Of a stretch of 60,454 nucleotides of DNA, positions 139 to 52,167 are shown piece by piece. Both the position numbers and the translations under genes were made by a program. Each line of letters opens with the position of its first letter. The stretch's first letter is position 1. This DNA comes from Halopiger djelfimassiliensis (GTDB lineage: Archaea > Halobacteriota > Halobacteria > Halobacteriales > Natrialbaceae), in NCBI RefSeq assembly GCF_000455365.1, contig NZ_HG315686.1, positions 454,229-514,682 of the forward strand, in the 5' to 3' direction. A model generated the notes under the pieces. That model saw only the letters and a list, made by a program, of their open reading frames with translations. It searched no databases and was not told where the DNA came from.

Positions 139-1161
139 TCAGGTCCGCTCCCGCAAGACATCGACAGTTTCGCGTAACTGCTGTACCTGTTGTTCTTTTT
201 GCTCCTCGATGTTCTCGTTCAGCGTTACGGGTCGCTCGGTAATCTCGGAGAGTCCGACGTTATCGAACAGTGCTGCACGCGGCGTATCGAAGTGGAACTG
301 TGCTTGATTCCCGTAGGCAAGCGTTGGAATGCAGGCATGAATTCGATCGGAGTGCGTGACTTCGGTGTTGGCATAAAGGAACAAGTAGTCAGTGATAAGG
401 TCCGAGACGAACACGTTCCCTCGGTTGAAATCACCGTAGCTCTTGATCCGATCCCAGACGTTCCTTACGATGCCCTGATACGGTTTCGAGCGGCCAAGCG
501 GGTTGTGGTCGGGCCTGATCGTTCGGGTATCCGATCGCAACGGCGGCTCTTCGACTTTGTCGAAGGCGGCAACGGAGAACTTCTGGTTGCTCTCCGAAGG
601 AGTATGCCACTCGTCAATGAAGAATGCACAATCGATTCCATTGTACGCGACGTCGACCGTATCAGCATACGACTCGTATGCCGGTGTGTCTCGAGAGATC
701 AACCCGCAATTATCAAGCCGACTGAGTTTCTCGGTGACACATCGACGGGTTTCACGATCGTAGGACCCACCACCGGCACCCAGAAGTACGATCGGGATGT
801 CGCGGGCCTGAAGTTCAAGCAGCGTCGGGAAATACGGCTCTAACGCGACATCGTATAAGACACAGCCCGGGAGGATCGCGAGGTCGACATCCACTAGTTC
901 GCTGATACTGACCATGTTCTGGCGTACTGGATGATCACGAAGCCTCCGTCCTCGGAATTTCTCGCCTGGAGCGCCGAGCTTCTGCCATACATTACCGGCG
1001 AGGGGGCCAAGCGCCACGTTCTCCTCGGCTTTGTTCGGAAATCCGGAGATCTCAATGATTTCGGAATCAGGGAACGCTCGTCGGATAATCCGCTTTGCGC
1101 CCTTATCGATAAACCCGTTTCCGATGTTCGTGATCCACGTTCTTAACAGAGCTATCTTCAT
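139..1161 (-). CDS. Polysaccharide pyruvyl transferase family protein
   Basis: A 340-residue cytoplasmic protein, the usual length for the polysaccharide pyruvyl transferase (CsaB/WcaK-like) family, which adds ketal-pyruvate to sugars of surface polymers. Supporting motifs are a glycine-rich turn LLGAGGGS in the middle of the protein and the family-typical HSDRIHA stretch near residue 270, followed by TLAYGN. It begins 14 bases after the flippase stop on the same strand, so the two form an operon read leftward. The C-terminus is a Glu/Gln-rich probable helix. Family assignment comes from motifs; the acceptor sugar cannot be told. Some family members do not transfer pyruvate, so the reaction is inferred. 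Confidence 0.8.
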   Translation of the reverse strand: MKIALLRTWITNIGNGFIDKGAKRIIRRAFPDSEIIEISGFPNKAEENVALGPLAGNVWQKLGAPGEKFRGRRLRDHPVRQNMVSISELVDVDLAILPGCVLYDVALEPYFPTLLELQARDIPIVLLGAGGGSYDRETRRCVTEKLSRLDNCGLISRDTPAYESYADTVDVAYNGIDCAFFIDEWHTPSESNQKFSVAAFDKVEEPPLRSDTRTIRPDHNPLGRSKPYQGIVRNVWDRIKSYGDFNRGNVFVSDLITDYLFLYANTEVTHSDRIHACIPTLAYGNQAQFHFDTPRAALFDNVGLSEITERPVTLNENIEEQKEQQVQQLRETVDVLRERT

Positions 1162-49413: not shown

Positions 49414-51318
49414 GTGACCGACGAACGTTCTTCGATGCCCTCCGAGGAGCAGCGAAGCGAGTCGACGCCGTCGACCGACGACCGCGACGGTACCGGCGCG
49501 GACGCCGAGGCGTTTACGATCGCCGACTTCCACGAGGCCAGCCAGCAGGCGGGACGGCCGGTGCTCACGGCGGCGGCGGTCGCCCGGGCGCTCGAGATCC
49601 CCCACGAGGCGGCCAGCGATCGCCTCGAGTCCCTCGCGGACGGGGGCGACCTCGAGCGGCTGTCGGTGTCGACCGACCCCGTCGTCTGGTATCCGAGCGA
49701 ACTCGAGGATCTGACCGACCGCGAACGGGTCGTCGTCTTTCCGAAACGCCGGGAGATCGTCGTCGACCGGCCCGACCAGTTCACGCGCGCGCAACTCGCA
49801 CAGTTCGCCCACCTCGAGGACGCAAACGGCGAGCAGGGCTATCGCTACGTCGTCCGACCCGAGGACGTCTGGCAGGCACCACACGACTCCTTCGAGGGGC
49901 TGGCACGGACGATGCGTCAGGCGCTCGGCCAGCGCTCGGAGCAACTGGAAGACTGGGTCGAAAGCCAGTGGGATCGCGCCCACCAGTTCAGACTGGTGAC
50001 ACACGAGGACGGCTACACGGTCCTCGAGGCCAAACGCCCCGAGATCATGGGGAACGTAGCCCGCCAGAAACTCGACGAGGAACACGTCCACGCTCCAATC
50101 TCCGAGACCGAAGACTGGGTCCGTGAGGGGGCGGCGGCCGCGATCAAGCGCATCCTCTACGAAGCCGGCTATCCCGTGCAGGATCACCGGGACCTAGAAT
50201 CCGGCGAGGCGCTTTCGATCGACCTTCAGCTCCGACTTCGGGACTACCAGCGGACCTGGGTCGACCGGTTCGCCGAGGCCGGCGAAGGCGTCTTCGTCGG
50301 CCCACCGGGCAGCGGCAAAACCGTCGCCGCGATGGGCGCGATGGCCCACGTCGAGGGCGAAACTCTGGTGTTGGTTCCGAGCCGAGACCTCGCCCGTCAG
50401 TGGGCCGACGCGATCGCCGAGTACACGTCGCTCGAGCCCCACCAGATCGGACAGTACCACGGCGGACAGAAGAACGTTCGGCCGGTCACGATCGCCACCT
50501 ACCAGATCGCCGGCATGGACCGCCACCGGTCGCTGTTCGACGACCGCGAGTGGGGGCTGGTGATCTTCGACGAGTGCCAGCACGTCCCCTCGGACGTCTA
50601 CCGGCGGAGCACGCACCTGCAGTCCCGACATCGGCTGGGACTCAGCGCCAGCCCCATCCGCGAGGACGATCGCCAGACGGAGATCTTCACGCTCGTCGGC
50701 CCGCCGATCGGCACCGATTGGCAGGCGCTGTTCGAGTCCGGCTTCGTCGCCGAGCCCGAACTCGAGATCCGCTATGTCCCGTGGGGCGACGACGAACAGC
50801 CAAACGCCTACGCGTCGGCGGAGGGCCGGGAGAAGTACCGTATCGCCGCGAAGAATCGGGGCAAGATCGACGAGGTTCGATACCTGCTGTCCGCACACCC
50901 CGATTCGAAGGCGCTCGTGTTCGTCGATTACCTCGAGCAGGGACGGGACCTCGCGGCCGCCCTCGACGTCCCCTTCCTCAGCGGCGAGACCCCGCATCAC
51001 GAACGCCGGCGGCTGCTCGAGGAGTTCCGGCGGAACGAGCGCGATCTGTTGGTCGTCTCGCGGGTCGGCGACGAGGGGATCGACCTCCCGACGGCCGACC
51101 TCGCCATCATCGCTTCGGGACTCGGCGGTTCGCGCCGGCAGGGAACCCAGCGGGCCGGCCGAACGATGCGGCCCGCGGGCGGCGCGCTCGTGTACGTGCT
51201 CGCGACGCGTGGCACCCGCGAGGAGGACTTCGCCCGCCGACAGCTCCAGCACCTCGGGCGCAAGGGGATGACGGTGCGAGAGAAAACGATCGAGCGCGAA
51301 TCCGAAACCGAGGATTAG
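49414..51318 (+). CDS. XPB/Rad25-like superfamily 2 DNA helicase
   Basis: A 634-residue helicase. Walker A is VGPPGSGKTVAAMGA, motif II is FDECQHV (a DEAH variant), motif III LGLSASP, and motif VI QRAGRTMRP. The N-terminal 200 residues form the damage-recognition-like region of XPB. It may act in nucleotide excision repair or transcription, with a nuclease such as Bax1 that is not encoded nearby. GTG 49414 is used because TTTATC lies 25-30 bases before it; ATG 49435, seven codons later, is an alternative. Its stop overlaps by four bases with the convergent small gene. Confidence 0.85.
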   Translation: MTDERSSMPSEEQRSESTPSTDDRDGTGADAEAFTIADFHEASQQAGRPVLTAAAVARALEIPHEAASDRLESLADGGDLERLSVSTDPVVWYPSELEDLTDRERVVVFPKRREIVVDRPDQFTRAQLAQFAHLEDANGEQGYRYVVRPEDVWQAPHDSFEGLARTMRQALGQRSEQLEDWVESQWDRAHQFRLVTHEDGYTVLEAKRPEIMGNVARQKLDEEHVHAPISETEDWVREGAAAAIKRILYEAGYPVQDHRDLESGEALSIDLQLRLRDYQRTWVDRFAEAGEGVFVGPPGSGKTVAAMGAMAHVEGETLVLVPSRDLARQWADAIAEYTSLEPHQIGQYHGGQKNVRPVTIATYQIAGMDRHRSLFDDREWGLVIFDECQHVPSDVYRRSTHLQSRHRLGLSASPIREDDRQTEIFTLVGPPIGTDWQALFESGFVAEPELEIRYVPWGDDEQPNAYASAEGREKYRIAAKNRGKIDEVRYLLSAHPDSKALVFVDYLEQGRDLAAALDVPFLSGETPHHERRRLLEEFRRNERDLLVVSRVGDEGIDLPTADLAIIASGLGGSRRQGTQRAGRTMRPAGGALVYVLATRGTREEDFARRQLQHLGRKGMTVREKTIERESETED

Positions 51319-51653
51319 CCGACCTCGGCGATCGGCGGCGCGTCGGGTTCGACCGCTTCGACGCGTTCGACGTCCTCGACCGCTTCGACGCCGACGCCGG
51401 CCTCGAGTTCCCGGCTCGCGAGCGCGGCGAGGCTCTCGTCGTCTGCGGGGATCTCGAGGGCGACGCGGACGCGGAGGTCGACGGTCGTATCGTTGAGTCC
51501 GGGCGAGACCTGCCGGACATCGGCGTCGGCGATCGCGTCGACGGCCTCGATTCGTTCGACGACCCGAACCGCGCCGTCCGCGAGGCTGCCGGTCGCACCG
51601 AGCGGGACGCGCACGGTGAGCGTTGCGACGACTGAATCACAGTGGCGCTGCAT
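51315..51653 (-). CDS. Acidic haloarchaeal protein of unknown function
   Basis: A 112-residue protein with alternating strands and helices: VATLTVRVPLGATG, VRVVERIEAVDAI, VRQVSPGLNDTTVDLRVRVALEIP, then a long acidic helix ELEAGVGVEAVEDVERVEAV. The fold could be a small alpha-beta sandwich. I first thought of the KEOPS subunit Pcc1, but the residues do not fit. ATG 51653 lies one base after a tRNA-shaped element, so its message may be formed by processing. Function unknown. Confidence 0.6.
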   Translation of the reverse strand: MQRHCDSVVATLTVRVPLGATGSLADGAVRVVERIEAVDAIADADVRQVSPGLNDTTVDLRVRVALEIPADDESLAALASRELEAGVGVEAVEDVERVEAVEPDAPPIAEVG

Positions 51654-51654
51654 A

Positions 51655-51722
51655 CACCCCCGTCGAGACTCGAACTCGACGCTCGGGCGGAGCCCGCGTG
51701 TTGACCAGTACACTACGGGGGA
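51655..51722 (-). ncRNA. tRNA-shaped element with a three-base anticodon loop
   Basis: A 68-base minus-strand sequence that folds like a tRNA: acceptor stem with six G-C pairs (bases 2-7 with 66-71; the outermost 1-72 pair is T-T), TA at 8-9, D stem GTGT/ACAC with an eight-base loop containing GG, a five-pair anticodon stem CGGGC/GCCCG closed by only TCC, a four-base variable loop, and a T arm TCGAG-TTCGAGT-CTCGA. All arms are perfect except the anticodon loop, which is four bases short. It cannot decode. It ends one base before ATG 51653. It could be a decayed tRNA or a tRNA-like processing or regulatory signal. Confidence 0.55.
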
Positions 51723-52167
51723 CCGTGTCCCGGCGCCGAACGGACCTGCTGACCGGTTACCAACGAGGGAGGAATCCCGAAAACCAGTCCAGTCGGCCGT
51801 CCGGCCGGGAGCGTGATTACGCGGCACGGACGGAACCGACACCGACCGGGACGAGCCCCGACAGCGGGCCCGGATTCCGTCCACGCGTTCCGTACTCGAG
51901 CCTATACCCGTGGGTCAGATACACGGGGGCGGACTCGAGGACCCACTTCCCGGCGCGAGTAGCGCCGTCGAAGCGAGTCGAGTGCGTGGTCGGAATCATC
52001 GGTCGGGAGACATCGACAACATTCCGTGGCAACGATATAATACTTTCCCGGGGATGTTCACAAGCCGCATTATCGGGCCGCGAGCGCTTCCCGACCGCGT
52101 CCCGGTTCTCGGAACCGCGGCGATGAGGCCAATCTTCAAGGTACCTGGTTCGAAGTGTTGTGATAGC
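51723..52167. other. Intergenic region between the tRNA-like element and the HerA-like gene
   Basis: About 445 bases. An A+T patch GATATAATA occurs near 52033-52041, about 130 bases before the 12-codon upstream frame, and could be a promoter. No other gene or repeat is evident. Confidence 0.4.

Follow-up and report, generated by a model that had tools for sequence, protein, structure and literature searches.

A tRNA-like element abutting the start codons of two small haloarchaeal genes, a candidate tRNase Z processing signal for leaderless messages

We identified a tRNA-like unit of acceptor stem and T arm that abuts the start codon of a small gene (gene A) in 55/55 orthologs, at a distance of 1-4 nt, and that is likewise placed before a second gene (gene B). 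We consider it fairly likely (probability about 0.6) that a tRNA was exapted here as a cis-acting RNA processing signal, at which a cut by tRNase Z would give rise to a leaderless gene A message. The structure of the element and its conservation are near certain. The window, i.e., the whole stretch of DNA that was analysed (60,454 nucleotides), is haloarchaeal (Natrialbaceae) and belongs to a genome of 3.78 Mb.

The element occupies positions 51656-51722 on the minus strand, with the discriminator at 51655 and the start codon of gene A at 51653. Its parts, in 5' to 3' order from 51722 and with a single G between the D arm and the anticodon-arm counterpart, are followed here by the gene:

51716..51722, minus strand: acceptor stem, 5' strand, TCCCCCG (read from the sequence); outer T-T mismatch; positions 2-7 paired in 55/55 orthologs and covarying
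51714..51715, minus strand: positions 8-9, TA (read from the sequence)
51698..51713, minus strand: D arm, GTGT-ACTGGTCA-ACAC, loop with GG; about 17 orthologs have it, and others have replaced or lost it
51684..51696, minus strand: anticodon-arm counterpart, CGGGC-TCC-GCCCG; stem kept in relatives with a canonical D arm, loop 3-45 nt
51680..51683, minus strand: variable region, AGCG, 4 nt (from the ortholog alignment)
51663..51679, minus strand: T arm, TCGAG-TTCGAGT-CTCGA, with the tRNA T-loop consensus G53-TTCGANY-C61
51656..51662, minus strand: acceptor stem, 3' strand, CGGGGGT (from sequence and covariation)
51655, minus strand: position 73 (G), behind which a tRNase Z cut is predicted from sequence and spacing statistics, leaving a 1-nt leader
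51315..51653, minus strand: gene A, 112 aa; no Pfam family, predicted ferredoxin-like bab-bab fold

The acceptor stem has 6 bp in addition to the outer mismatch, the D stem 4 bp, and the anticodon and T stems 5 bp each. An initial annotation of this locus had described complementary stems with an outer T-T mismatch, a TCC anticodon loop of three bases, and a discriminator followed by one base and then the ATG. All of this is seen in the sequence (G at position 73, then T, then ATG), and only the variable loop departs from that description, being 4 nt long and not the standard 5.

The T-arm signature of tRNA (G53-TTCRANY-C61) is present in the window element, which is nevertheless not a tRNA by two defining features, recognition by tRNA models and a seven-base anticodon loop with U33. 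The counterpart loop consists of the three nucleotides TCC, ARAGORN made no tRNA call for the element, and Rfam did not call it a tRNA at the gathering score or, on a 201-base stretch, at E<=10. A pattern composed of the T-loop consensus, a 5-bp T stem, six Watson-Crick acceptor pairs and an ATG within 8 nt matched once in the window and in none of 40 first-order Markov random sequences of the same length. We built two covariance models. The first (R1) was trained with the window element among its sequences, and the scores of R1 therefore reflect in part how it was built. We therefore built a held-out model (R2) trained only on the gene A elements of other families and on gene B elements, without any Natrialbaceae gene A. 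R2 scored the element at 36.6 bits (E 3e-14), compared with 12.7 bits for the runner-up in the window, and recovered it in all 55 family loci (E 1.1e-5 or better). Origin by chance is rejected on the strict-pattern test and the R2 score. The folding energy is only modestly low (MFE of -30.0; z-score of -1.85), and the lowest-energy fold of the window element differs from the cloverleaf, whose energy is about 2 kcal/mol higher. Support for the window element is thus comparative rather than energetic.

Matches to the gene A protein were found in 60 of the 125 family genomes, and 55 clear orthologs were fetched as the family sample; named relatives are Natrialbaceae (e.g., Natrinema salsiterrestre and Natrialba aegyptia). 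The initial annotation had proposed looking in relatives for the same element and for compensatory stem changes, and both were found: the element lies directly 5' of the gene A ATG in 55/55. In the T stem, pairs 50-64, 51-63 and 53-61 are invariant and pairs 49-65 and 52-62 vary on both sides. Among 44 distinct sequences, other families included, 9 of the 12 acceptor and T-arm pairs are altered on both sides, and pairing holds in 96.4% of cells. This figure is inflated at the acceptor, where the 5' strand that paired best was taken; the T arm was placed by means of its loop, and its conservation is unaffected by that choice. When partners were slid, 44-55% of cells paired, and 0/500 shuffles reached the observed values. 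Much of the core sequence is GC-rich and invariant, and the G, TTCGA and C of the T arm are invariant in 49 sequences from the two genes. Conservation does not extend to the outer pair 1-72, which many orthologs leave unpaired, and most orthologs have C at position 73; both features are unusual for tRNAs.

The middle of the element is 18-78 nt long and has no common sequence. In some lineages the D loop holds an inserted hairpin, and in some the D arm is lost. The 5-bp anticodon stem is paired in 14/14 elements with a standard D arm, three of its pairs varying on both sides, and its loop, 3 to 45 nt long among such relatives, has no fixed form. The junction to the gene is tight: from position 73 to the ATG there is 1 nt in 28 of the 55 orthologs, 2 nt in 20, 3 nt in 6 and 4 nt in one. 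CCA at positions 74-76 is an anti-determinant of most tRNase Z enzymes, and no CCA is encoded there among the 16 spacer types of the 55 elements.

In three genomes the element is an intact tRNA-like copy. Those of G001 and G006 are full tRNAs by Rfam (59.4 and 59.1 bits) and tRNA-Glu(UUC) by ARAGORN, with the anticodon loop CTTTCGA; both genomes carry a canonical tRNA-Glu(UUC) elsewhere, with an acceptor and anticodon stem that differ from those of the element. The element of G207, from another family, is tRNA-Glu(UUC)-like by ARAGORN, and two canonical-type copies are present elsewhere in that genome. G207 and G006 have CGGCCCTTTCGAGGCCGGGAC in common, and the arm CGGCC-CTTTCGA-GGCCG is common to the intact copies, which lie at the gene A start with other tRNA genes nearby:

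L079, 1403-1476: intact tRNA-Glu(UUC)-like copy
L080, 1798-1871: intact tRNA-Glu(UUC)-like copy
L339, 1505-1577: intact tRNA-Glu(UUC)-like copy

Relatives with seven-base loops had been named beforehand as pointing to a mutated tRNA. Such relatives do exist, but their copies are additional to the canonical tRNA-Glu(UUC) in all three genomes, and we therefore read them as signs of tRNA ancestry and not as simple mutation of a needed tRNA. The processing element with a nearly leaderless message that the initial annotation had proposed is partly supported, with the comparative conservation and the predicted leader of 1-4 nt on its side. The simplest reading is that an ancestral extra tRNA-Glu copy was retained in G001, G006 and G207 and reshaped elsewhere. 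On the gene A tree, the intact copies need three changes of state, and retention, regain and transfer all fit. Downstream of gene A in L080, a match to the mascRNA-menRNA family (722-783, minus strand; 28.6 bits) falls below the gathering score.

A gene A profile has homologs in 215 of the 392 genomes of the order. In 18 of 20 gene A loci from seven other families, a TTCGA T arm and an acceptor-like stem precede the start; the D and anticodon arms in these 18 are not tRNA-like. The T-loop consensus is absent from the other two, both f17 orthologs, and thus the element is not indispensable. One of them (G198) retains a perfect GCTCCCG/CGGGAGC pair. In G318, the start codon lies farther from the element. 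When 393 genomes of the phylum were scanned with R1, all matches of at least 38 bits were in Halobacteriales, and those opened there precede homologs of gene A or of gene B. Among 11 matches opened outside the order, 10 were set aside as confusion with real tRNAs, since ARAGORN calls them ordinary tRNAs, and one (L350; G437:C1:1400063-1400091, minus strand) is not called a tRNA by ARAGORN. In another family, a perfect GACGCGCC/GGCGCGTC stem with a T arm lies directly 5' of a secreted-protein gene (L342; G261:C12:121520-121549, minus strand), and a third gene class with the element is possible. One genome that has the first element also carries a second T-arm/acceptor element and ATG just downstream of gene A (L341; G130:C4:150058-150086).

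In the whole host genome (3.78 Mb), R1, which was trained with the window sequence, finds two strong sites, both at start codons: the window element (42.0 bits) and a site of 40.4 bits, with the next at 20.1. The second site (C2:1007724-1007752, minus strand), first noticed when the host genome was scanned with a DNA pattern, precedes a small DUF5658 membrane protein (gene B), which has matches in 117/125 family genomes. All 30 gene B loci examined have the TTCGANY T arm and 5-6 acceptor pairs, with 9-39 nt of linker and neither a D arm nor an anticodon arm. Covariation is weaker than for gene A: 93.6% of cells are paired vs 39-62% when slid, with five pairs doubly changed among 27 distinct sequences. 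The predicted leader is 1 nt in 29/30 loci. Loci L209, L238 and L283 have the gene B element. An ATAACAA-like motif was identified 33-48 nt 5' of the acceptor in 27/30 (loci L252-L281); it is possibly a promoter upstream of the element, which would be compatible with transcription through it. The evidence for tRNA ancestry concerns the gene A element.

The gene A protein matched no Pfam or NCBIfam family above cut-off and has no significant homolog among PDB sequences. An AlphaFold2 model, made from seven sequences, has a bab-bab fold (mean pLDDT 78). The fold search gave no significant match (best Foldseek E 0.02, Z about 7), and the ferredoxin-like folds listed (e.g., SSo6206, EF-1beta and ribosomal S6) are matched weakly; we therefore assign no function, and claim no relationship to DUF211 or EF-1beta. 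Gene A is convergent with an XPB-like helicase gene, the two overlapping by four bases at their stop codons (51315-51318). On a Halosolutus gelatinilyticus plasmid, gene A (annotated as a hypothetical protein) adjoins a DEAD/DEAH helicase. Upstream of the element is an ORF of 60 codons (51817-51999, minus strand) that begins with MIPTT and ends with SVRAA, is alike at both ends in many relatives, and has a hairpin spanning its stop codon. Its non-synonymous changes outnumber the synonymous ones, and it is not clearly coding.

Transfer RNA processing suggests how the element could work. We infer that in early Halobacteriales a tRNA gene or tRNA-Glu(UUC)-like copy lay immediately 5' of gene A, and that the element, its descendant, is transcribed as part of the gene A message leader. 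The acceptor stem and T arm would fold into a tRNA-like coaxial helix, and tRNase Z would cut behind position 73, so that the mRNA would begin 1-4 nt before the AUG and be translated as a leaderless message; RNase P may cut the 5' side. tRNase Z recognises the acceptor and T arm with the elbow loop, and the varying parts of the element are what the enzyme does not need. Because the acceptor/T-arm half alone would be needed, the D and anticodon arms would be free to change, with a hairpin usually retained in the middle, and the DUF5658 gene would be using a minimal version. We favour a processing signal because the conserved features (the acceptor, the T arm and its elbow loop, and the distance to the ATG) are those that tRNase Z recognises. 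Leaderless translation is the main initiation route in haloarchaea. The predicted gene A leaders (1-4 nt, 55/55) all fall within the 0-5 nt that define leaderless messages in Haloferax, to which 72% of the coding transcripts of Hfx. volcanii belong (PMC4983044).

Elements of this kind have precedents. Hoelzle et al. (in 2008 and 2012) reportedly described a t-element upstream of the 5S rRNA in Haloferax volcanii. In Haloferax, tRNase Z cuts the tRNA-like element that precedes 5S rRNA and so forms the 5S rRNA 5' end, and t-elements flanking a crRNA are cut in vivo by RNase P and tRNase Z (PMC4326828; PMC7714728). The likeness is that, in haloarchaea, a tRNA-like structure directly precedes the 5' end of a mature RNA (here a predicted end). 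The 5S t-element works when transplanted beside a crRNA. The gene A and gene B elements differ from it in that they precede protein-coding genes, occur Halobacteriales-wide, and are often without a D arm or a regular anticodon arm. In mitochondrial tRNA punctuation and in plant and algal mitochondrial t-elements, RNase P and RNase Z cuts set the ends of mRNAs and leave almost no leader. The elements here resemble mitochondrial punctuation in having a tRNA-like unit at the message start with almost no (predicted) leader, but they are on an archaeal chromosome, serve single genes with their own leaders, and are tRNA-like units reduced to acceptor and T arm. They share with tRNA (RF00005) the acceptor, the G53-TTCRANY-C61 T arm and often the D arm, and three relatives have tRNA-Glu(UUC)-like copies that are intact; most elements, however, lack a usable anticodon loop, and ARAGORN and Rfam do not detect the one in the window. 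The mascRNA/menRNA family (RF01684) is tRNA-like with reduced arms, as here, and is processed by RNase P and RNase Z; in animals it is found 3' of a long RNA, whereas the elements here precede genes, and the mascRNA matches near L079 and L080 are below gathering score. The gene A element is probably a t-element-like, tRNA-derived mRNA leader.

The element could instead be a regulatory tRNA mimic that is not chiefly cut but bound by a tRNA-binding protein (possibly the gene A product itself, the CCA enzyme or an enzyme that modifies tRNA), and that controls translation from the adjacent AUG. The elbow and T-loop identity elements are retained, a stem 1-4 nt from the AUG would hinder initiation unless opened or cut, and the small bab-bab fold predicted for gene A also occurs in some RNA-binding proteins, such as ribosomal S6. 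We consider this unlikely, as the element is common to two unrelated genes, the spacing fits cleavage very tightly, and the fold matches are weak and non-specific. An excised tRNA-like RNA might be the main product, released by RNase P and tRNase Z as is mascRNA, with the mRNA as by-product. This would suit the retained acceptor/T-arm core with its structured middle and the three genomes with intact copies, but what is constant is the junction to the ATG and not the 18-78 nt middle, and we regard such a role as distinctly improbable.

That GAGTTCGANTCTC is nearly palindromic might suggest an inverted repeat or operator near the promoter, acting as DNA and not as RNA. Such a site would hardly account for an acceptor partner 18-78 nt away with compensatory changes, for a loop that retains the asymmetric consensus TTCGANY, or for a fixed orientation and distance to the ATG, and we give it very little credence. 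The initial annotation had also raised a decayed tRNA or an old integration site. Although tRNA callers do not recognise the window element and intact homologs exist, the covariation already contradicts functionless decay, and order-wide retention at a fixed distance from the ATG excludes neutral decay. We found no evidence of an integration site, and a functionless remnant of either kind is the reading to which we attach next to no probability.

Returning to the processing signal, we lean slightly toward a broader conclusion, that some haloarchaeal leaderless mRNAs arise by tRNA-type processing and not by transcription start, through an order-wide class of leaders derived from or mimicking the acceptor/T-arm half of tRNA. 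tRNase Z would cut these leaders, and intact-tRNA, cloverleaf-without-anticodon and minihelix stages would all still exist in living species. If so, tRNA punctuation would reach archaeal mRNAs, and leaderless messages would have a second route of formation. The expression of two small genes would be tied to tRNA-processing capacity, and the surviving stages would form a series from tRNA gene to regulatory or processing element. The uncharacterised gene A and DUF5658 gene would also gain a testable common feature of expression.
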